Under the pieces are notes generated by a model. That model searched no databases and was not told the origin of the DNA. It saw nothing but the letters and a program-made list of their open reading frames with translations. A stretch of DNA of 64,000 nucleotides. Origin: Candidatus Scalindua japonica (GTDB lineage Bacteria > Planctomycetota > Brocadiia > Brocadiales > Scalinduaceae). Shown here one piece after another: positions 1 through 13,176 of this stretch. A program made the position numbers and the translations under genes. The number at the start of each line of letters is the position of its first letter. Position 1 is the stretch's first letter. The stretch is taken from assembly GCF_002443295.1 (NCBI RefSeq), contig NZ_BAOS01000010.1:62001-126000 (forward strand), in the 5' to 3' direction.

Positions 1-1596
1 TTCGTTCAACCACTTTTTCAGATCAACCGTATCGATAAATCGACCGGCGCTGTCCGGATAGGATAATCCGTAACGCAGTTCACCAGCACGCATAAACAGA
101 TATACATCATCACGCTTGTAAGCGTAACAGACCGGCTGCACAGATCGTGAGTCTGCGACCAGGATGGTGTTCGTGGTTATATGATCCTGCTGTGAATGCA
201 GGAAAGTGGACATTCCCGTTTTAACGGAATGCTCAATCGGTACAGCAAATGGAAACGCCAGCATTATAATAATCGCAGGCAGGCCGTGCATAAACGTCTT
301 TCGCAGTCCGTTTTGCATGCGCAGGGTTATCAACAAGACCACAAAACACACTACCGCCGCACAAACGCAGTACCATAGTTTATAATCCTCTCCGGAACCA
401 TAAATCTTCCTGTGCAAATCTGGTGTAAAGACAGTAGAGAGCAGAGCTACAACCATAAGGCCCGTTAACACGTTCAATAAGAGAGAACAATATTTGAACA
501 TTCCTCCCATTCCCTTCCTGAAATATTCAGTAAGTCCAATCCCAAGAAGCACAGCCAGCGGAGGGAAACAGGGAAGGACATAGGTAATCGTCTTTCCTGA
601 CGAGATCGAAAAGAACACAAGCGGTAGAATCATCCAGCATACGCAGAAACGAATTAGCGGCTTACGGAGAAGTTCGCCGTTCCATCGAACCAGGACCACT
701 GGAATAAACAGCAACCAGGGCAACGAACCATCAAGGAAAAACGGAATCAGAAACCAGAATGGTTTCTCATGCATGCCGGAGTCCGCCGAGAAAAAGCGTT
801 GAACATGTTCCACCCAGAAAAAATAACGCCAGAAATCCGGTTCTCGTGAGGCAATCATAAAGCACCACGGCAGCGCTACGACTATGGCTCCCAGCAGAGG
901 AAGCCATGGTACAGTAAAAATCACACGCCAGCGTCTCTCCCACAATAAAAACGGGACCATAATCACTGTCGGTACAATAATAACAAGAAAGCCTTTTGTC
1001 ATGAATGCGGCACCGCAGAAGACCCCGCAGAGCAACAACCACCGGTTCCGCTTCTTCCCGGTATCGTTGGCGCCAGCCACAAAGAAACAACTCAGCATGG
1101 CGGTAAGAAAAAAAGTAAGCAGGTTATCCGGCACACAGAAAGTGCCCACACCGTAGACCCCAACAAAAGTCATATAGATAAAGGCAGCCAGCAGCGCAGT
1201 TCGATCACACTTGTAAAAGCGCCTGACCATCAAGAAGATTGTCAGGGCCGTCAGCCCAACAGCAAGAGCGGATGGAAAACGGATGGCAAAACCATTATCT
1301 CCGAACAGAGCCATGGATTCGGAATTCAGCCAGTATCCGAGCACAGGTTTCTCAAAATAGCGCAACCCGTTCAACCTGGGAACGATAAAATCTTTAGTAT
1401 CCAGCATTTCCCGGGATATCTCTCCGTATCGCGCTTCATCAGGGACAGCCACAGGACGCACATTCATTGGAGCTATGTACAACAGAAGAAACAGAATTGA
1501 TAAACCGATCACTCCTTTTTTTAATACGGTAATAGTGTGTATTTTTTTACAGGTAAAAAGCGTAATACCATCGAACCTTTTGGAGTTTGGAGACAT
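1..1596 (-). CDS. ArnT-like membrane glycosyltransferase (partial, 3' end outside window)
   Basis: Read on the minus strand from an ATG preceded by a GAGG-type ribosome site, this frame stays open for 532 codons to the window edge. The N-terminal part carries the hallmark of the ArnT/PMT (GT39/GT83) family: an acidic motif DEARYGEISREM after the first membrane segment, then RLNGLRYFEKPVLGYW. Many hydrophobic segments follow. Family members use a polyprenyl-phosphate sugar donor at the outer face of the inner membrane, typically adding aminoarabinose or another sugar to lipid A or other glycoconjugates. Real lipid A modification is an inference; the sugar and acceptor cannot be read from sequence. 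An in-frame TGA lies just upstream of the start. Confidence 0.85.
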   Translation of the reverse strand, partial: MSPNSKRFDGITLFTCKKIHTITVLKKGVIGLSILFLLLYIAPMNVRPVAVPDEARYGEISREMLDTKDFIVPRLNGLRYFEKPVLGYWLNSESMALFGDNGFAIRFPSALAVGLTALTIFLMVRRFYKCDRTALLAAFIYMTFVGVYGVGTFCVPDNLLTFFLTAMLSCFFVAGANDTGKKRNRWLLLCGVFCGAAFMTKGFLVIIVPTVIMVPFLLWERRWRVIFTVPWLPLLGAIVVALPWCFMIASREPDFWRYFFWVEHVQRFFSADSGMHEKPFWFLIPFFLDGSLPWLLFIPVVLVRWNGELLRKPLIRFCVCWMILPLVFFSISSGKTITYVLPCFPPLAVLLGIGLTEYFRKGMGGMFKYCSLLLNVLTGLMVVALLSTVFTPDLHRKIYGSGEDYKLWYCVCAAVVCFVVLLITLRMQNGLRKTFMHGLPAIIIMLAFPFAVPIEHSVKTGMSTFLHSQQDHITTNTILVADSRSVQPVCYAYKRDDVYLFMRAGELRYGLSYPDSAGRFIDTVDLKKWLNE

Positions 1597-2762: not shown

Positions 2763-5700
2763 TTAAGTCTCAGACTGGTTTAGTAATGACTTTGCGTGCC
2801 CTCGAAGCTTCCAGTACATAACCGGCATGACAAACAGGTTGAGTAGAATTGAACTTATCAGTCCGCCAACAATGACTATTGCCATCGGATGTTCAATCTC
2901 CTGACCGGGTAAATTGCCTCCTATGATTATCGGCAAGAGCGCTAAACCAGTCGTCAAGGTCGTCATAAGTATAGGCACCAGTCGTTCCGTTGCACCACGC
3001 ACAATCAGGTTGATATCAAAAGGTTGGTTCTCCTGTACCTCCAGATTATTATAGTGGCTGATAAGCATGATGCTGTTCCTGGCGGAGATTCCCAGTACCG
3101 CGATAAATCCTATCAATGAACCAAGGGAAAGCACTCCACCACCCAGGAACGCGGCCACGACACCGCCAATTAAGGCGAATGGAAGACCCAGAAACACGAG
3201 AAGAGCAAGTCTGACAGAGCCAAAACTCACATGCAGAATCAGGAAAATACCGATAACGGACATTATTGAGAGTATGATAATGCGGTTTCTCGATGATTCC
3301 TGTGCCGCGTATTCTCCAAGGACCTCAGGATGGTAACCACTGTTGAATGGGATGTCATCCACCCTATTTCTAATATCACGCTCCACACTACCCAGATCGC
3401 GATCCCGTACATTACAGGTAACCTCCGTATAACGCGATGCCGATTCACGGGTAATCTTGTTCGGTACAGGAGCAACAAAAACATCCGCTACTTCGTTCAA
3501 TGGAACGATGCCGCCTGTAGGTGTTTCAATTCTCAGAGAACGAAGAGCATCAAGACTGTTACGAACCTGAGGAGCGCCCCAAACGACTACATCGAAAATA
3601 TTCTGGTCTTCATAAAACTCCCCCACTTTCACCCCATTCATCAGCAATGCAACAGCATTGCGGACCATACCACCGTTTAACCCGAAATGCACAGCAGCAT
3701 CCGGTCGGTAATGTACCTCAACCTGTGGGACAAGGATCTGCGGTTTCACTTTCAAATCAGCAACGCCTCTTACATCAGAAATTGATGTTCTGACGTCTTC
3801 AGCTTTTTCGCGCAGGATTTCGAGATTCTCACCATATATACGCACGACAATTGTCGCGCTGGATCCGGTAAGCACCTCCTTGATTCTCTCTCGCAGATAC
3901 GTAAGCAGGTCCCGGTACAGTCCCGGATAACCGTCTACTACTTCCTGTATTTTTGCAACGGTCGTGTCGTAGTCTACATCAGGGTCAATACTGATCCATA
4001 GTTCTGCAAAGTTCGGACCTACCACCTCATCGGCAACCTCTGATCTGCCGATGTGCGAGCCAAAATTACGCACGCCAGGAATGGCTCGAAGCTCTTTACT
4101 TACTCGGGTGGTTATGCGCTCCATCGCCTGTAGTGAAGTCCCCGGTTTTCCAACCCAGTGCATCAGGAAGTCGTGCTCCTTGAAATTCGGAAGAAATTCC
4201 TCGCCGAGGAAGGTAACTGAAACTGCTGCCAGGATGAAAGCACCTGCCAGAAAAGAGATGACACGCTTCGGCCTCATAATCAAAGGCGGCAGCATTGCCC
4301 GGTAACGTGCTTTCAGCCATCTTACGAATGAGGGCTCCCGGCGATGAGATGCCCCCGGCAAAAGGATTAGTGACAATGCGGGCGTAAGGGTAAGAGCAAC
4401 CAGCAGAGACGACATGATAGCCAGTATGTAGGAGAAAGCAAGCGGGCTGAAGAATGAACCCGCCAGTCCCTCAAGGAAGAAAACAGGAATCAGCACCAGT
4501 ACAACGATTACACTTCCATATACAACAGCGCTGCGTACCTCCATTGAAGCGTTCAGCACGACCTTGAATGCCGATTCAGGATTACCGGCTTCGCGGTTGA
4601 GACGGAGTCTGCGCATGATATTTTCTACATCAATAACGGCATCGTCAACCAGCTCTCCGAGCGCTATAACCAGCCCGGCAAGAACCATGGTATTAATAGT
4701 TCCCCCGCGATAGTGAAGGACCAGTGCGGCTATCACCAGTGAAGTCGGAATTGCCAGAACGCTGATCAGGGCAGTGCGCCAGTCATTGAGAAAAAAAGCC
4801 AGTACGATTATTACAAGGACACAGCCGATAAGTAGTGATCGGTTAAGATTATGGAGTGACATTTCAATAAATGTTGCCGGACGAAAAATTGTAGAATCCA
4901 TTTCAATGTCCTTAATACCCGGCCTGAGAGCCTCCAGTACTTCTTCAATCTTACGCGTTACTTCAAGTGTATTCCCCCACGGCTGTTTTTCAACAATTAG
5001 TAGTAAACCCGGCCCTTCATTTATAACCGAGTCACCAATAGGTGGCGGAAAACCTTCTGTCAGCTCCGCCAGATCACCCAGCTTGATAGCAACTCCATTA
5101 CGAAAAGCAACCGGCACATGTGAAAGATCTTCAGGTGATTTAAGAGACAGAACATTTGTGACTGCAAGACGCTGATTGGGCGTGTCGATAAATCCACCGC
5201 CTCCGATTGCTGTAGCATCACGAACAGACTGTACTACGTCATTTGTAGTAACTCCATGGGTATACAGATTGTCAGGGTCTATGAGTACCTGAATCTGACG
5301 GTCTCGCTGTCCCCAGATGGCAACATTCGCCACGCCCGGAATGGCCATAAGCCGAGGCCTGATCGTCCATTTCGCGACTGTTGTCATTTCCTTCTGTGAC
5401 AGTTTTTGAGAGGAAAGACCTATCTTGAGGACTCTGCTGGTGGACGATAGTGGAGAAAGGATGACCGGAGCTTTTACCACAGAGGGCAATCTTTCTGCAA
5501 GCTGAACCAGCCGCTCCTGAACGAGCTGCCGGGCCTGCATGACATCGGTACCCTCTTTAAAATAAAGTACTACCGAGGAGAGACCAAGCACAGATTTTGA
5601 ACGAACTTTTTTCAACCATGAGACACCGTTAACAGCGCTCTCAACAGGTATGGTAATCAGGGTCTCAACCTCTGACGTTGAAAGTCCGGGGCCTTCTGTC

Positions 5701-5852
5701 TGTATCTCTACAAGGGGAGGTGCAAATTCAGGAAATACGTCAAAGGAGCTTCGTTTGCTCACCGTATGTGAACCGGCAATCAACAACACCATGGTCACTA
5801 CAACAATGGAAACACGCAGACGCAGAGATGTAGACACCAGCCACCTTATCAT
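2763..5852 (-). CDS. Heavy-metal efflux RND permease (CusA/CzcA family)
   Basis: At 1029 residues it matches the usual length of HME-type RND pumps. It has the N-terminal membrane helix, two large periplasmic loops and two blocks of membrane helices. The charged motif in the fourth helix, [18 protein letters not shown], is typical of the metal-exporting branch and carries the proton-relay acids. It would form the inner-membrane trimer that expels metal cations through the adaptor and outer-membrane channel encoded just upstream. The gene overlaps the adaptor stop by four bases (ATGA), so the two are translationally coupled. Metal specificity (Cu/Ag or Zn/Co/Cd) cannot be decided here. Confidence 0.93.
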
Positions 5853-7066
5853 TTACCACCCCCAAATTCTGTTCCGAATAGCTCTGTAACTGCTGTAATG
5901 ACAATCTCATCATCTTTATTAACACCACGTGTTACGACTGCATAACCATCAATAACACCGGATACTTCAACCCGTTGCCTTGAGTATGTATACCTGGCAG
6001 TTTTCAAATAAACCCAGCTCCCTCCATGTATGTCGTACATTATTGCGGACCAGGGGACAGCAATTCTATTGCCGGAACCCAGTTTCGTCAGTGAAACACT
6101 CACCTTCTGTCCCGTGCGAAAGAGACCATCCGGATTCGATATCTCAAAGAAAAGATCTGACGATACGCTGTTAGGATCACTGAGTAACGGACCATTTACG
6201 GGCTTTGCATTATAAACATTTTTATTACGTACGTTCCCAAGAGGTTGAATAATCGCATCCTTTTCCTGATCTACCGTTACCATATCACCAACATAAACAG
6301 GTACACGTACCCAGACAGGGTCCTGGCTGACAACCTCAAACAGGAGAGTTGACGCAGAAACGGCTTGTCCCGGTGCAACATGAATACGCTGTATCACACC
6401 GTCAACAGGTGACTTCAAAACAAAAGTGGAAAGCCCTTCCGTAGCTGATTCCATCCCTGTACCGTCCAGGAGATGCAGCCGTGCCTCAGCCGCCTTGAGG
6501 GACGCCCTTGCGGCAGCCAGTCCGGCCTGTGCCTCCAGATAAATCTTCCTGCTGGTTGCCTTATCCTGCAAAAGAAGTTTTGCACGATCTGCCTGAGCTT
6601 GTGCAACCTCTAATTGTACCTTTTTTACTTCGACCGCTTCACGAACACCCGCGATATCTTTCTCCGGTGTGAGCAATAACAGGTTCAGGATAGCCTGACC
6701 TTTTTTGACCTGAGTTCCTGCCGGTAGCAACTCATCACTGTTTATACCGTAAACAGTTCCCGCCATTGGCGCGGCAATCCTGGCTTGATGACCGGGAAGT
6801 GACATTATTTCTCCACCGAGTCTTAACGTGTTCCGTATAATTTGGTAATCCGCGACAGTGGTTTCTACTCCCAGACGTTGTTCTGCCGTCGGAGAAAGAA
6901 TAACAGTTGTAAGCTCTGACTCTTTGACACCATTATTCACCTTTGCCGGTTTATCTGATTTCCCTTCAGAAAGGTTATTCTTACTGAAAACACAAATAAG
7001 TATAAGAGAGAACAACAAAATAAATTTACCGGTATACGTTTGAATATATTTTGAACTTCCGTGCAC
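5849..7066 (-). CDS. RND efflux periplasmic adaptor (CusB/CzcB-like membrane fusion protein)
   Basis: The 405-residue protein has an N-terminal membrane anchor or signal (residues 14-28), a biotinyl-lipoyl-like segment ([14 protein letters not shown]), an alpha-hairpin rich in Ala/Lys/Glu (about residues 135-200), the second lipoyl half ([14 protein letters not shown]) and beta-barrel/membrane-proximal parts. It bridges the inner-membrane pump and the outer-membrane channel. The start is GTG at 7066, preceded by a strong AGGAG; an ATG overlaps it in another frame and leads nowhere. It lies between the outer-membrane factor and the pump gene in one transcription unit. Confidence 0.9.
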
Positions 7067-7228: not shown

Positions 7229-8602
7229 TCAAAAAGGGGCTGTATGGGAAACAGCCCCTACCGTTTCTGTTTTCAACATTTTCTGTTTAAATCCTACACT
7301 ATGTCTGAGTTGTGCTGAAGCCCTGCGCAGTTCTGCTGTTGATTCTGCCTCTCTCAAGCGTGAATCCAGGAGCTGACGTTTAAATCCAAGATAATCCTGA
7401 TAGGTAATTTCACCAACAGAGTATCTTTTCTCTGCTATCTCTACAGCAGTAATGGAAGATGACAATAAACCGGAACGCAGAATTTTTAATGCATTCTGTG
7501 CCGAAAGATAATTTATATACGCTTCACGCACCTTTAGGGCTATTTCCTGCTTTACCGCCACATACTGTTTTGCTGCCTTTTCCAATTGTGCTTTAGAGCG
7601 TGAAACCTTTCCATTATTCCTGTTAAAAATTGGCAGTTCAAACCATGCCCCCGGCCCAAATTCCGAGCCGCTCCTGCCTCTTTCATTAAAATCCATAATG
7701 GCAGTAAAATTGAAGATTTTTGATCGTTCCCATCCCAGACGTTTGCCTGCTTCCTCAATAGCAATCTCTGCAGCACGTAAATCAGGACGTGCTGCATATG
7801 CTGAGGTGATAAGCTGTTCAAGGTTTATATCCCATTCGCTATCTATCTGTATTGGTTCCAGCTTGATTGTCTTTTCCTCCTGCTCCAGTCCAAGAAGTGT
7901 TCTCAGTTTTGCATCTAAAAGTTCAGCATCACGAATAGTATTAACTAAATCTCTCTCTTTGCGAGCCGCTTCAAGTTCAAATACTGACTCGTCCAGTCCA
8001 CTTATATCACCGGCACGCAGACGAGCCTGTGCAATAGTAAGGATTTCCCCATTAAGTACCGTCTCTTTTTTTGCAATATTCACCCGCTCCTGTGAGAATA
8101 TTAGATTTGTATAGGTTAACATGACGTCACGAACGAGGTTAAGACCATTCTGGACCAGGTTTTCAGCTACGCGTTCAGCGCTCAACCTGGCTGCAGATAC
8201 ACGACACGGTCTCTGCCATAGTGACTCTATCGGCATAAATATAGTGGTTTCCATCTGTTTTGGCCCTGCCGGGAAAAACATTGAAAATACCGGATTACTG
8301 ATCATACCCGCCTCTATCAGATCTGCCCGTGAGAAACCAAGATCGGTAAGATCAGACTGAAATTTTGCATTATTCCATAAGGCAATGGCAACCGCTTCAT
8401 CCTCTGTCAAGCCGTCTATAAGCGAAATATTATCCGGTAGCCTTACATCTTCCGCTTTTTCGTCTGATGCAAGATTATGCCCGGTACGTCTGCTGATAGA
8501 ATCAGATACGTATGCACGATCATGTGTTAAATGCGCGAAACAGCCAACTGATATCAGAACAACCGGAAAAAGGAAAAAATAGTAAAGGGTTTTCAGACAC
8601 AT
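7229..8602 (-). CDS. TolC-like outer-membrane efflux factor (CusC/CzcC)
   Basis: This 457-residue protein has an N-terminal signal ending near VGC (a non-ideal lipobox, so lipidation is uncertain). It then has the duplicated helical repeat of outer-membrane factors, e.g. LTDLGFSRADLIEAGMISNPVF and KRLGWERSKIFNFTAIM in the two halves. It provides the exit duct for the RND complex encoded downstream, and is the first gene of the pump operon. A 41-bp operator-like element lies about 60 bases upstream. Its last ten residues (VGAVSHTAPF) and the stop codon are encoded by a palindromic repeat element rather than by family-conserved sequence. Confidence 0.9.
   Translation of the reverse strand: MCLKTLYYFFLFPVVLISVGCFAHLTHDRAYVSDSISRRTGHNLASDEKAEDVRLPDNISLIDGLTEDEAVAIALWNNAKFQSDLTDLGFSRADLIEAGMISNPVFSMFFPAGPKQMETTIFMPIESLWQRPCRVSAARLSAERVAENLVQNGLNLVRDVMLTYTNLIFSQERVNIAKKETVLNGEILTIAQARLRAGDISGLDESVFELEAARKERDLVNTIRDAELLDAKLRTLLGLEQEEKTIKLEPIQIDSEWDINLEQLITSAYAARPDLRAAEIAIEEAGKRLGWERSKIFNFTAIMDFNERGRSGSEFGPGAWFELPIFNRNNGKVSRSKAQLEKAAKQYVAVKQEIALKVREAYINYLSAQNALKILRSGLLSSSITAVEIAEKRYSVGEITYQDYLGFKRQLLDSRLREAESTAELRRASAQLRHSVGFKQKMLKTETVGAVSHTAPF
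7236..7261 (-). repeat. Palindromic repeat element overlapping the 3' end of the outer-membrane factor gene
   Basis: GGGGCTGT and ACAGCCCC form an 8-bp stem around a 7-base loop. Read on the minus strand the unit begins GTAGGGGCTGTTTCCCA, which matches the element at 58483-58540 (GTAGGGCCCGTTTCCCA). In both places it lies at the end of a gene in the same reading frame and supplies the C-terminal residues and stop. Confidence 0.75.
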
Positions 8603-8663
8603 GGTTTATCAATGATAAGAAGTTTTAATATTTTCATAATTTATAACGTTTATATATTAATAT

Positions 8664-8704
8664 ACATTAAGGCATGATGAAGGGAAGATGAAGAAATGTT
8701 AATG
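8664..8704 (-). promoter_or_regulatory. Candidate response-regulator operator of the efflux operon
   Basis: On the minus strand this 41-bp block contains four TT(A/C)A(C/T) half-sites (TTAAC, TTCAT, TTCAT, TTAAT) beginning at positions 3, 13, 24 and 35, i.e. a 10-11 bp period. An ungapped match (34 of 41 bases) lies upstream of the response-regulator gene at 12044-12084. OmpR/PhoB-family regulators typically bind tandem half-sites spaced by one helical turn. Binding by the local regulator is inferred. Confidence 0.65.
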
Positions 8705-8754
8705 TTGCAGGTTTATTGGTATACGGTAACCGTGTTGTAATCACGACATCAGAC

Positions 8755-8806
8755 ATCCTTCGACTCCCCGTCCGATCCGGCACGGGCGGGCGCTCAGAAG
8801 ATGACG
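8755..8806. repeat. Dispersed hairpin repeat, copy A (left arm)
   Basis: It carries the ATCCTTCGACTCC ... GCTCAG arm shared by five other intergenic copies in the window, with an internal CGTCCGATCCGGCACGGG stretch also present in copy B. The right arm is missing. Confidence 0.7.
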
Positions 8807-8827
8807 TCACTTAGAACGGTTTCCTGC

Positions 8828-8915
8828 AGGTTCAATCATGCTGATTGAACCTAAACGTTTCGGTTCAGGCTACAACCCTGAACCAGCCAGAGAACATTTG
8901 GATCAGGCATCCAAA
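8828..8915. repeat. Three tandem hairpins
   Basis: Three perfect stems follow each other: 8828-8852 (11-bp stem, 3-base loop), 8862-8884 (8-bp stem, 7-base loop) and 8897-8915 (7-bp stem, 5-base loop). They lie just beyond the stop of the RlmJ-like gene and before the efflux operon promoter. No U-tract follows in either direction. They may form an RNA structure or end a transcript; function unknown. Confidence 0.7.
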
Positions 8916-8928
8916 CGAATGCACACTG

Positions 8929-9765
8929 TTATGAGATGATTTGACTATCAAATCCGATTGGACATCCTACTGCTTTTGTAAGGTTCCTTGAAAATTTAGA
9001 TACATTTTCAGAAAGGATGTTTAGTTTGTCGTTTGGATAATTGTTGTGAGTGTAAAGTATAATAGATGAATGGAATTTTGACTCCCCTTCAATTGTTGAA
9101 TTTTCTATTGCATCACACTGAAGAGAAATATAATTGAAGGAATCTCCGGTCAAATTTTCATTTATTTTTTTGAACTGAGACCAAAGGTTAATTTCTGCAT
9201 TATAATACAATACAAATAGAGCAATTGAGGTATTGTCTTCTTTTACTTTTCGGATTATTTTGTCCAATATTTTTTTGTTTATATTTTCAAGATCATAAAA
9301 TGGATCAATTAATATCAGTGCATGTTTGCTTCTATCGATGCTGCCTTGAAGGATAGACAACCCGTCTTCCAGATTAAACCCTCTCAATCTGATCAGATTT
9401 AACCCGCTAGCTTCAAGATCCTGCCTGGCAGCACTATCGCTGTCTGACGAGAAAACTGTGATTTTATTTTCATATTGCTTACTGATTTGAGATACGATAT
9501 GCCCACTACCAAGATATTTTTCCGAATGTATTGATTGAACCTCTTTCAATGGACATGCCTCAAGAGTCTTTATCCTTTTAGAAACAGCATCATGAACCGG
9601 TTCCTGCCAGGGACGCCCACCAAAAGGGTCATAATAGGTAAGACTATGGGGAATTTCTCTGCAATGCCAGTCCGTAAATTCAGCTAAAAGGCCATGTTTT
9701 ATTAAGTCACCTCCATTGCCCATAGTATAAGGAAGCGGATGGGCTATTAACTCAAATTTTTCCAT
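8929..9765 (-). CDS. RlmJ-like SAM-dependent methyltransferase homologue
   Basis: The 278-residue protein keeps the layout of RlmJ, the 23S rRNA adenine-2030 N6-methyltransferase: an N-terminal GNGGDLIKHGLL (RlmJ has GNHADVLKH), LTYYDPFGG in the cofactor-binding position, KYLGSGHIVSQI (compare YPGSPLIARLL) and LILIDPFYDLE at the catalytic DPPY position. The catalytic motif therefore reads DPFY, a conservative change. Similarity is by motif only, so another substrate is possible. It lies 26 bases after the sensor kinase gene and inside the metal-efflux locus, an unexpected place for an rRNA methyltransferase. Confidence 0.6.
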   Translation of the reverse strand: MEKFELIAHPLPYTMGNGGDLIKHGLLAEFTDWHCREIPHSLTYYDPFGGRPWQEPVHDAVSKRIKTLEACPLKEVQSIHSEKYLGSGHIVSQISKQYENKITVFSSDSDSAARQDLEASGLNLIRLRGFNLEDGLSILQGSIDRSKHALILIDPFYDLENINKKILDKIIRKVKEDNTSIALFVLYYNAEINLWSQFKKINENLTGDSFNYISLQCDAIENSTIEGESKFHSSIILYTHNNYPNDKLNILSENVSKFSRNLTKAVGCPIGFDSQIIS

Positions 9766-9791
9766 TATCTTGTTGATAAAAAATAGTGTAT

Positions 9792-11228
9792 TCAGGAATT
9801 TATAAGATTTTTGGGAAGTATAACGTCAAAGGTGCTTCCCACACCAATGTCACTTCTTACCTCTATTCTCCCTTTATGAAATTCAACAATATTTTTGCTG
9901 ATACTAAGACCGAGACCGGAACCTCCCGTCTCTCCTGACCGTGAAGTGTCTACACGGAAACAACGGTCAAAAATCTTTCTGAGACTCTCTTCAGTAATAC
10001 CGACTCCCGTATCCGTTATGCTGACAATAACATCATCGTTCCTATCTTCCAGAGAAATGTACACGCGACCACCGGGTGAAGTGTATTTGATGGCGTTGTC
10101 CAGCAGATTCGCAAACACACGCCGCAACATAATCTTATCTCCGTTGATTTCCACTTCCGGAAATTCCTTATTTGATAATACTATATTCTTTGTATCTGAT
10201 ACCGGACTGAATTTCCTTTGAATTTCCTTCAACGTATTGCCCAGGTTGAATGATTTCAGATGTAAGATATTTGAACCTGAATCTGATCTTGAGAGTTCCA
10301 TTAAATCACTGATTGTCCTGGTTATTCTTTCTAATGACACTAAACTGTGATAGAGTAATTTACGATACTCTGCTGCTGTCCTATCCTTTGACAGCATGAC
10401 TTCAATTCCTGTTTTAAGAGAAGCAACAGGTGTCCTGAGTTCGTGAGAAACATCCGCTGTAAACTGAGCAATCTTTGTGAAAGACTCCTCAATCCTGTCC
10501 AGCATGATATTTATGGTATGTGCCAGTTCATCCACTTCATCTCCCGTATGAGAAGAAAAAATTCTCCTTTTCATGTCTGATCCGGTTATCTGCCGTGCGG
10601 TTTCAGTCATTTTTGTTATCGGAGACAAATTCTTCCTGGAAATCAACCAACCTCCGATAATACTCAATATAATGAGTATCGGCGCTGACATTAGAAAATT
10701 TTCTTCCATGTTTTCTACTGATTTATATGAGAGTCTCATATAAATACCCACCTGAAGAATATACTTACAGGAATTACCAATCACTACAGGTCTTGTTATT
10801 AAGCGGTAGGGAGATCTTAAACCTTCAACCCATATCTTTTCTAACGTCTGTTCTCCTTGTACCATTTTTCCCATTTTATCAGCAGAAATCTCTAAATCCG
10901 GAAAAAAGAAATTCTCTGAGCCGATAAAAGAACTCTGTTCTATATCATACAATCTTATTGATGTCCTAAGATACCTCTTACTAGAGGACTTTATCTCTAT
11001 TAGTTTTAATAAATCATTCGTAGTGTAACTGTTATTTTTAATACTTTGAACGATAAATTCGCTTTCATCAAATAATATGCGATCGGTTTCCTTATTAAGC
11101 GTATGTGTTAATCTATAATACAAAAAAGAGCCTAAAACAAGCAGCATTAATAGAACCGACACTGAATACCATAAAGCGATCCTGACGCCGATTGTATTGA
11201 ATAATCTAATCCGGCTCTTCGATGACAT
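9792..11228 (-). CDS. Heavy-metal sensor histidine kinase (CusS-like)
   Basis: The 478-residue kinase has two membrane helices (about residues 14-33 and 178-195) bounding a periplasmic sensor region. A HAMP linker follows, then the H-box DVSHELRTPVASLKTGIEVM, N-box RRVFANLLDNAIKYT, G1 DTGVGI, F-box IFDRCFRVD and G2 GGSGLGLSI. This is the architecture of CusS/IrlS heavy-metal sensors, which phosphorylate an OmpR-type partner when periplasmic metal rises. Its start overlaps the response-regulator end by 23 bases, so the pair is cotranscribed. Confidence 0.92.
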   Translation of the reverse strand: MSSKSRIRLFNTIGVRIALWYSVSVLLMLLVLGSFLYYRLTHTLNKETDRILFDESEFIVQSIKNNSYTTNDLLKLIEIKSSSKRYLRTSIRLYDIEQSSFIGSENFFFPDLEISADKMGKMVQGEQTLEKIWVEGLRSPYRLITRPVVIGNSCKYILQVGIYMRLSYKSVENMEENFLMSAPILIILSIIGGWLISRKNLSPITKMTETARQITGSDMKRRIFSSHTGDEVDELAHTINIMLDRIEESFTKIAQFTADVSHELRTPVASLKTGIEVMLSKDRTAAEYRKLLYHSLVSLERITRTISDLMELSRSDSGSNILHLKSFNLGNTLKEIQRKFSPVSDTKNIVLSNKEFPEVEINGDKIMLRRVFANLLDNAIKYTSPGGRVYISLEDRNDDVIVSITDTGVGITEESLRKIFDRCFRVDTSRSGETGGSGLGLSISKNIVEFHKGRIEVRSDIGVGSTFDVILPKNLINS

Positions 11229-11880
11229 ATCCAGCTCCCCTTTGTGTGTGTATGAGATTTATATCAAAGTGCTTATCAATCTTACTTCTCAGCTTGGCGA
11301 TATGAACGTCCACGACATTACTGAAACTCTCAAAATTTGAATCCCATACATGTTCTGAAATCATCGTCCGGGTAACTACCTGTCCCGCATGCTGCATCAA
11401 ATATTCCAGGAGGGAAAATTCAATAGGTGACATCTCTATCTTTTTCTTTCCCCTGAATACCTTTCTGGTAAGCGGGTCAAGGGTCAGATCACCCACTGTT
11501 AATTCTGACGATGTCTTGTGGCTACCTCTTCGCAGACAGACACGAACACGGGCCAGCAGTTCATGAAAGGAGAAAGGCTTGACGATGTAGTCATCAGCCC
11601 CAATATTTAACCCTTCAACCCTGTCTGCTATTGAATCTTTTGCTGTAAGGAAGATCACCGGCGTAATGATCCCGGCGCTTCGAACCTCTTTAAGTATTGT
11701 TTTTCCATCATGCTCCGGCAACATAATGTCCAGTATCAAAAGATCATAGACCTCATGTGTCGCCAGATGCAGACCATCCGTACCATTAAGAGCAATGTCC
11801 ACTACATAAGAGCTCTCTTCCAGCCCCTTTTTCAGGTATCTGGCCATCTTCTCTTCATCTTCAACAATCAGGATTCTCAT
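11206..11880 (-). CDS. OmpR-family response regulator (CusR-like)
   Basis: This is a receiver domain (MRILIVEDEEK, phospho-acceptor Asp in LLILDIMLPEHDG, Thr in FLTAKD, Lys in IVKPFSF) followed by an OmpR-type winged helix (SPIEFSLLEYLMQHAGQVVTRTMI, VDVHIAKLRSKID, TQRGAGYVI). I start it at the ATG of MRILIVEDE (11880). A longer frame to 11967 runs into a dispersed repeat and adds 29 residues absent from the family. It should activate its own operon and the efflux operon through the matching 41-bp elements at 12044 and 8664. Confidence 0.92.
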   Translation of the reverse strand: MRILIVEDEEKMARYLKKGLEESSYVVDIALNGTDGLHLATHEVYDLLILDIMLPEHDGKTILKEVRSAGIITPVIFLTAKDSIADRVEGLNIGADDYIVKPFSFHELLARVRVCLRRGSHKTSSELTVGDLTLDPLTRKVFRGKKKIEMSPIEFSLLEYLMQHAGQVVTRTMISEHVWDSNFESFSNVVDVHIAKLRSKIDKHFDINLIHTQRGAGYVIEEPD

Positions 11881-11910
11881 ATTTAAATTATTGTAATTGT
11901 GACAAAAGAT

Positions 11911-12009
11911 TATCCTTCGACTCCTCGTCCGATCCGGCACGGGAGGGCATTCAGGATGACGTCCCACTCCACCTAACAGGTGAGCAAAGTCGAAGTATTA
12001 TCAATATCC
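11911..12009. repeat. Dispersed hairpin repeat, copy B
   Basis: The left arm TATCCTTCGACTCC and a degenerate right arm ending AGTCGAAGTATTATCAATAT flank a GC-rich centre (CGTCCGATCCGGCACGGG) shared with copy A. It lies in the leader of the response-regulator gene. Confidence 0.75.
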
Positions 12010-12043
12010 AAAACCATCATACTATTTATACATTACAAAACAA

Positions 12044-12084
12044 ACATTAAGACAAGATGAATGAGAGATTAAAAAATGTTAATG
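12044..12084 (-). promoter_or_regulatory. Candidate operator upstream of the two-component regulator
   Basis: This is an ungapped 34/41 match to the element at 8664-8704, with half-sites TTAAC, TTAAT, TTCAT and TTAAT at the same 10-11 bp period on the minus strand. TATAAA-like sequence follows in the transcription direction. It overlaps the last codons of the heptosyltransferase gene by six bases. Autoregulation of the two-component operon is inferred. Confidence 0.65.
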
Positions 12085-13176
12085 AAGCGGTTTTGTAGTT
12101 GTTTTGTTTTGTTCATTTCTCTGATACCCTAAAATATCGATACATGTCTGCACCACTTTCTCCGGTGTTATCATGGTCATACAGCGGCGATCCGTGGGAC
12201 ACGTCTTGAGCTGACATGGTGAACAATCGATATCTTCTCTTATCACCTTACCTGTCTCATATTCTGAATCAGTATACATGGGATTATTAGGGCCCATCAG
12301 TACGACAACAGGCCGGTTCAAGGCTACCGCGTAATGCCTTGGCCCCGAGTCCAGCGCTATCAAGAGCATGCATCGTTTAACGATTACCTTAAACAGATCA
12401 AGAGAGATTGATGCACGCGAAAGGTTGATCAGACCCTTCCTGGAATATTTTTCAATCTCATCAGCAAGTCCGGTTTCACCCGGACCGCAAGTCAGGACGA
12501 TATTGCAGTCAACAACTTCCTTTAACAAATCTGCTGTCCTTGCAAATCCCTCAGCCGTCCAGAGTTTTGAGGAGCCGTAAGATGCTCCAGGGTTCATCAG
12601 GATGAACGGCTTCTTATCAATTTTGTATTCTTTTAATAACTCTCCTGCTTTCGTTTCACATTCTCCGGAAATAAGCAGTTCCGGTTTTCCGGACTCCACC
12701 TTGCATCCAAGTTGAGAACACAGCTTTAAATAGTAATCACCCATATATGTTGGCAGAAATTTTCCATTCTCACTCAGTCTCTCTATACCGTCAGTCAACA
12801 GGAAGGAACGAGAGTCTCTTTTATAACCAACGCGCCTCTTTACCCCCCCTAACCAAACCATCAGAGCTGAACTGAATGAATTAGGAAATAAAAAACCCAA
12901 ATCGAATTGTTCCGTCCTGATTTTTTTGATCAATCCCAGATATGCTTTCGCATTGCCGCTTTTACTCTTTCCCGCCTTGGGTTCCAGTTCAATAACTTCA
13001 TCAAACCAGGAAGAGCCGTCAATTATGCCCCGTAAATTTTTTTTGATCAGTAACGTTATTTGCGAATCAGCAAAATTTTCCCGGATACACCTGAAGGCGG
13101 GAGTTGCCATCACAACGTCACCAACCCAATTTGGAGCCCTTACCAGTATCTTCTTTGCCTTAATTATCTGTTCCAT
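12079..13176 (-). CDS. waaF: LPS heptosyltransferase II-type glycosyltransferase (GT9)
   Basis: The 365-residue protein has the GT9 signatures: VRAPNWVGDVVMATPAF at the N-terminus, FLFPNSFSSALMVWLGG, NPGASYGSSKLW at the donor side and LLIALDSGPRHYAVALNRPVVVLMGP. The C-terminal CSPCQLKTCPTDRRCM cysteine stretch is common in WaaF. It transfers the second heptose from ADP-heptose to the LPS inner core at the cytoplasmic face. Its start overlaps the preceding glycosyltransferase gene by 17 bases, in a minus-strand LPS operon. The acceptor is inferred from the family. Confidence 0.88.
   Translation of the reverse strand: MEQIIKAKKILVRAPNWVGDVVMATPAFRCIRENFADSQITLLIKKNLRGIIDGSSWFDEVIELEPKAGKSKSGNAKAYLGLIKKIRTEQFDLGFLFPNSFSSALMVWLGGVKRRVGYKRDSRSFLLTDGIERLSENGKFLPTYMGDYYLKLCSQLGCKVESGKPELLISGECETKAGELLKEYKIDKKPFILMNPGASYGSSKLWTAEGFARTADLLKEVVDCNIVLTCGPGETGLADEIEKYSRKGLINLSRASISLDLFKVIVKRCMLLIALDSGPRHYAVALNRPVVVLMGPNNPMYTDSEYETGKVIREDIDCSPCQLKTCPTDRRCMTMITPEKVVQTCIDILGYQRNEQNKTTTKPLH

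Follow-up and report, generated by a model that had tools for sequence, protein, structure and literature searches.

In Candidatus Scalindua japonica, a CusR-type two-component system probably runs a PmrA-like envelope-defence regulon through 41-bp operators. We analysed 64,000 nucleotides of contig NZ_BAOS01000010.1 (hereafter the window), in which two such elements, boxes A and B, precede an RND efflux operon and the response regulator/kinase operon. The original prediction for this DNA had been a metal-efflux regulon in which sensor and pump form one autoregulated circuit under an OmpR/PhoB-type regulator. The circuit is supported by the conservation of the boxes, their genome-wide uniqueness and the promoter geometry. 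Its identity as metal efflux is not, and we prefer the envelope-defence reading because the kinase lacks the Ag(I)/Cu(I) ligands of CusS, the RND permease falls below the CusA/CzcA cut-off, and a further, conserved predicted target is an arn operon outside the window, a linkage that recurs in relatives.

Sequence and layout of the boxes

Ungapped re-alignment of the two 41-bp blocks gave 34 identical positions out of 41, as originally described, and the match around them widens to 56 nt at 77% (8659-8714 and 12039-12094). Read on the minus strand, box A is CATTAACATTTCTTCATCTTCCCTTCATCATGCCTTAATGT and box B is CATTAACATTTTTTAATCTCTCATTCATCTTGTCTTAATGT. The predicted TT(A/C)A(C/T) half-sites at a 10-11 bp period were recovered: on the minus strand each box has four TTMAY half-sites with start-to-start spacings of 10, 11 and 11 bp, and half-sites 2-4 are of the YTTMAT type with 5-bp gaps between them. 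The first half-site could point either way: read as inverted it scores 2.28 bits and as direct 0.54 bits, compared with 7-8 bits for half-sites 2-4, and some rows are off register. The direct repeats, about 10-11 bp apart and placed in the promoter from which the regulator itself would be expressed, match the OmpR/PhoB family, and four half-sites could plausibly seat two regulator dimers side by side. A pattern with equal 11-11-11 spacing missed both boxes and was rejected.

Placement was also as predicted, with 61 bp from the end of box A to the ATG of the outer-membrane factor gene (8602) and 163 bp from the end of box B to that of the response regulator gene (11880). The upstream heptosyltransferase gene ends within box B, sharing its last 6 bp with it. 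Using a matrix trained partly on A and B, the four-half-site score was 37.4 for A and 35.8 for B; the best score elsewhere in the window was 3.5, and 100 dinucleotide-shuffled versions of the window reached at most 15.1.

Along the minus strand, heptosyltransferase II is followed by box B, the response regulator, the kinase, an orphan ORF, box A, the outer-membrane factor, the adaptor and the RND permease. Several glycosyltransferase genes lie upstream, so the regulator-kinase pair sits in an LPS/glycan locus. The orphan ORF has no Pfam or NCBIfam match and is absent from 38 related genomes; in two orthologous loci (L100 and L104) the kinase and outer-membrane factor genes are adjacent at this point.

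Table 1. Features in the window (positions counted from its first base)
Feature	Position	Strand	Basis or remark
Box A, predicted four-half-site operator of the RND efflux operon	8664..8704	-	orthologous boxes ahead of the same outer-membrane factor gene in L100, L104, L106
Box A half-sites	8696-8703, 8686-8693, 8675-8682, 8664-8671	-	
Putative -10 TATAAA, efflux operon	8649..8654	-	9 bp past box A; most of 30 boxes have a TATAAT-like hexamer there
Box B, predicted four-half-site operator of the response regulator/kinase operon	12044..12084	-	kept ahead of response regulator orthologues, L100-L106
Box B half-sites	12076-12083, 12066-12073, 12055-12062, 12044-12051	-	
Putative -10 TGTAAT after box B, weaker	12032..12037	-	TATAAA begins 1 bp further downstream
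Heptosyltransferase II	12079-13176	-	
Response regulator, OmpR/PhoB family, CusR/CopR/CzcR-type subfamily	11206..11880	-	TIGR01387 294.1 bits, cut-off 279.2
Sensor histidine kinase, without CusS Cu/Ag ligands	9792..11228	-	TIGR01386 313.8 bits, cut-off 292.6
Orphan ORF	8929-9765	-	278 aa
Outer-membrane factor, RND pump	7229..8602	-	PF02321
Periplasmic adaptor, RND pump	5849..7066	-	TIGR01730
RND permease	2763..5852	-	nearest solved structures ZneA, CusA; TIGR00914 610 bits, cut-off 701
Second ArnT-like glycosyltransferase gene, runs off window start	1..1596	-	486.6 bits, cut-off 567

Uniqueness in the genome and conservation in Brocadiales

The unbiased test is a half-site pattern derived from the window only, with which we searched the genome and its relatives as the original prediction had proposed. 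In the 4.8 Mb genome it matched twice without mismatch (A and B) and once with two mismatches, the rest having three, which is background. Applied blind at ≤ 1 mismatch to 59 Brocadiales genomes, it gave 28 matches, and the reversed pattern, used as a control, gave 0 in the same genomes.

These counts bear on a rival reading, in which the blocks would be a dispersed repeat, or copies from a recent duplication, and would play no part in regulation; many unrelated genome-wide copies of the 41-bp block would have indicated it. A genuine dispersed repeat does lie near both boxes (CCTTCGACTCC...GGCACGGG, also given as CCTTCGACTCC.CGTCCGATCCGGCACGGG; 8755-8797 and 11912-11954). It has 8 genome copies within 3 mismatches, and one of them falls between box B and the response regulator start, where the spacing is longer than in L100-L102. 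Against this reading, the repeat is positioned differently relative to the two boxes, in both distance and side, the 41-bp block has just two genome copies, and the boxes are kept between species. The two-copy count and the 28 versus 0 matches rule out such an origin, to which we assign a negligible chance.

The 41-bp element stands ahead of the response regulator gene in orthologous loci L100-L106 and, where the pump exists, ahead of the outer-membrane factor gene (L100, L104 and L106). An alignment of 18 boxes has 14 invariant columns, nearly all inside half-sites. Eleven of the 28 blind matches lie ahead of a response regulator or outer-membrane factor gene and about 12 ahead of envelope genes of the ArnT-like, GT2/LAB_N/PMT, heptosyltransferase and sulfatase-family kinds; the others have a methyltransferase or no assigned gene.

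Box matches occur in 11 of the 13 genomes with a strong regulator orthologue and in 2 of the 46 without one (Fisher p about 2e-8, a value that ignores phylogeny and overstates the strength of the association, as related genomes are not independent). The strongest boxes cluster on the same contig as the regulator orthologue. The exceptions count against the envelope-defence reading: two genomes have boxes with no regulator detected (G005 and G011), and two have the regulator with no box match at 1 mismatch (G036 and G019). It is conceivable that another OmpR-family regulator of the cell binds the element and that the local pair is merely a target, since OmpR-family direct repeats are alike among regulators and G011 carries a box with no orthologue of the pair detected. 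We regard this as very unlikely, given that box presence follows the regulator orthologue across the 59 genomes and that the strongest boxes accompany it on its contig. The adjacent regulator is the likely controller of boxes A and B.

Two further arrays were seen in these genomes. In G011, where no response regulator orthologue was detected, a box (L178, 4757-4796) follows a heptosyltransferase gene at the place where other species have the response regulator, and GT2-LAB_N-PMT genes lie downstream. In G019, six near-perfect half-sites (CTTAATCTTAT repeats; L109, 10637-10699, minus strand) lie upstream of a 114-aa ORF resembling a PII-type nitrogen regulatory protein.

Promoter geometry

A TATAAT-like hexamer starts 8-9 bp past the last half-site in most of 30 boxes, and the best -10 match at that offset averages 4.9 out of 6, compared with a median of 3.2 over the scanned positions. 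A -35 hexamer would sit on the third half-site, where TTGACA is not conserved. Because the array lies 8-9 bp before the -10 element and conserved TTGACA is missing, the geometry is that expected of an activator replacing the -35 contact, which suggests that the bound regulator activates these promoters.

Response regulator, kinase and pump

The regulator and kinase both score above the cut-offs of the heavy-metal subfamily models TIGR01387 and TIGR01386. These scores favour a classic metal-responsive circuit of the Cus/Czc/Cop type, in which the kinase would sense a periplasmic metal ion, the regulator would induce itself and a heavy-metal RND pump, and the arn linkage would be secondary. ZneA and CusA are the closest solved RND structures, and the Synechocystis CopR site is closely similar to the half-sites (PMC4182526). 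Several observations speak against such a circuit. CusS binds Ag(I) through H42, F43, H176, S84, M133, M135 and H145 (PMC10100754). The window's kinase retains none of these seven ligands, and all 14 kinase orthologues lack the Met/His-rich loop; a one-residue misalignment could restore His42, not the other ligands. The permease scores 610 bits with TIGR00914, under the cut-off of 701 for the CusA/CzcA heavy-metal class, and boxes in relatives stand ahead of arn, other ArnT-like, GT2/LAB_N and heptosyltransferase genes. We therefore consider a classic metal circuit unlikely. A metal signal for the kinase is possible, and the ligand evidence does not favour it; the kinase may bind other metals, for example Fe(III) or Zn, via acidic residues. 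The AlphaFold model of its sensor domain is of low confidence (pLDDT 51.5). In the permease, the TM4 motif in the proton-relay region is unusual when compared with ZneA (DFGIIVDGAIVVMEN).

Membership of the PmrA family is not indicated by the curated model either: the regulator scores 195 bits with NF007928, which has a cut-off of 330, and the PmrA base-contact residues are only partly present. Both points count against the envelope-defence reading.

The arn operon and other predicted targets

A box profile based on sequence only ranks three sites in the genome above noise (matches with E above 0.01 genome-wide being taken as noise): A, B and, in third place, contig 10:61780-61845. This third array lies 155-220 bp before window base 1. 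Three of its half-sites are in register beside the promoter, and those further upstream are in a different phase. It is weaker than A and B and differently arranged, which weighs against the envelope-defence reading. The array is 63 bp ahead of a complete six-gene arn operon encoding, in order, ArnT-like, ArnB-like, ArnC-like, ArnA formyltransferase, ArnA decarboxylase and ArnD-like proteins. The two ArnA proteins pass single-domain model cut-offs; the other four have Arn models as their best matches and fall below the equivalog cut-offs, a further point on the opposing side.

An arnT-first operon with a box ahead of it is also found in five other genomes (G006, G008, G009, G015 and G016), and further boxes in relatives stand ahead of genes of the ArnT-like, GT2/LAB_N/PMT, heptosyltransferase and sulfatase-family kinds. 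Five more distant anammox genomes encode a CusR-type regulator-kinase pair, its regulator about 50% identical to that of the window, within one 16-kb stretch that also carries arn genes. A box follows the kinase gene in three of these five Brocadia-like arn loci, and none was found in the other two. Separately, G008 and G009 have a divergent second box ahead of a gene whose membrane-protein product belongs to the sulfatase family (PF00884) and may be an EptA- or LtaS-like transferase (L174, 11615-11664, and L176, 2903-2942, both plus strand).

Proposed regulon and its significance

Sequence, conservation, promoter geometry and gene linkage are what we observed; from them we infer phosphorylation, binding and activation in the following steps. 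The kinase would phosphorylate the regulator, which would dimerise and align its DNA-binding domains on the 11-bp-spaced CTTMAT half-sites. There it would stand in for the -35 box and recruit RNA polymerase, activating three promoters: that of its own operon (box B), that of the RND efflux operon (box A) and that of the arn operon outside the window. The outcome would resemble that of PmrAB/BasRS, with aminoarabinose added to lipid A and toxic compounds pumped out, and the inducing signal would be a cationic compound acting on the envelope, or else a metal cation.

More specifically, in anammox planctomycetes a CusR-type system may govern a PmrA-like aminoarabinose-lipid A regulon, having reached a CTTAAT-N5 operator from another regulator branch than in enterobacteria and placing an RND pump and arn genes under one switch across several Brocadiales families; we hold the chances of this to be even. 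Our literature search, mainly of open papers, turned up no publication on aminoarabinose lipid A in anammox bacteria or on how it is controlled there. If the proposal is true, these slow-growing bacteria of wastewater and oceans can switch on a defence of their envelope for which an operator and targets are predicted, the likely database annotation "heavy metal response regulator" would be corrected, and tandem CTTAAT-type operators may extend beyond PmrA proper.

Comparison with known systems

E. coli CusRS has a response regulator 51% identical to that of the window, and it too adjoins an RND operon. It differs in having a palindrome between cusR and cusC (AAAATGACAATTTTGTCATTTT) and no tandem CTTMAT array; the anammox half-site matrix found no pair in the E. 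coli cus region. The metal ligands present in E. coli CusS are missing in the anammox kinases. The AgrR box of Cupriavidus, bound by a regulator of the heavy-metal family, combines inverted and direct half-sites (PMC7380067). This mixed orientation recalls the ambiguous first element of the anammox boxes, whereas its 16-bp palindromic core and its role in silver resistance set it apart.

In Synechocystis, the CopR site TTCATN4-5TTCAT precedes an RND operon and the regulator's own two-component genes (PMC4182526), and we saw such TTCAT-type boxes in pSYSX. CopRS (copMRS, copBAC) thus shares with the anammox system direct repeats ahead of an autoregulated two-component system and an RND operon, and judged by sequence its site is as close in form to the anammox half-sites as the PmrA box is. 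Unlike the anammox system, it senses copper, with two half-sites, a regulator 40% identical and a different kinase sensor region. No arn genes were found in the copMRS-copBAC stretch examined.

The Salmonella PmrA box consists of CTTAAG and NTTAAT with 5 bp between them (PMC3973317), and the enterobacterial PmrA/BasR box in general has 6-bp CTTAAT-type direct repeats with a 5-bp gap, a form shared by half-sites 2-4 of the anammox boxes. On an 8-kb E. coli basRS region, the anammox half-site matrix found exactly two pairs, before eptA and pmrR (shuffle mean 0.03). PmrAB (BasRS) is likewise an autoregulated two-component system, and it controls arn genes together with other lipid A modification functions. 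The anammox system differs from it in its CusR-type regulator (37% identical to BasR), its RND pump and its planctomycete host, and its boxes have three or four half-sites, with the leading element at 10 bp, where the PmrA box has two. It would be PmrA-like in action, yet with a regulator that the curated model places outside the PmrA family.
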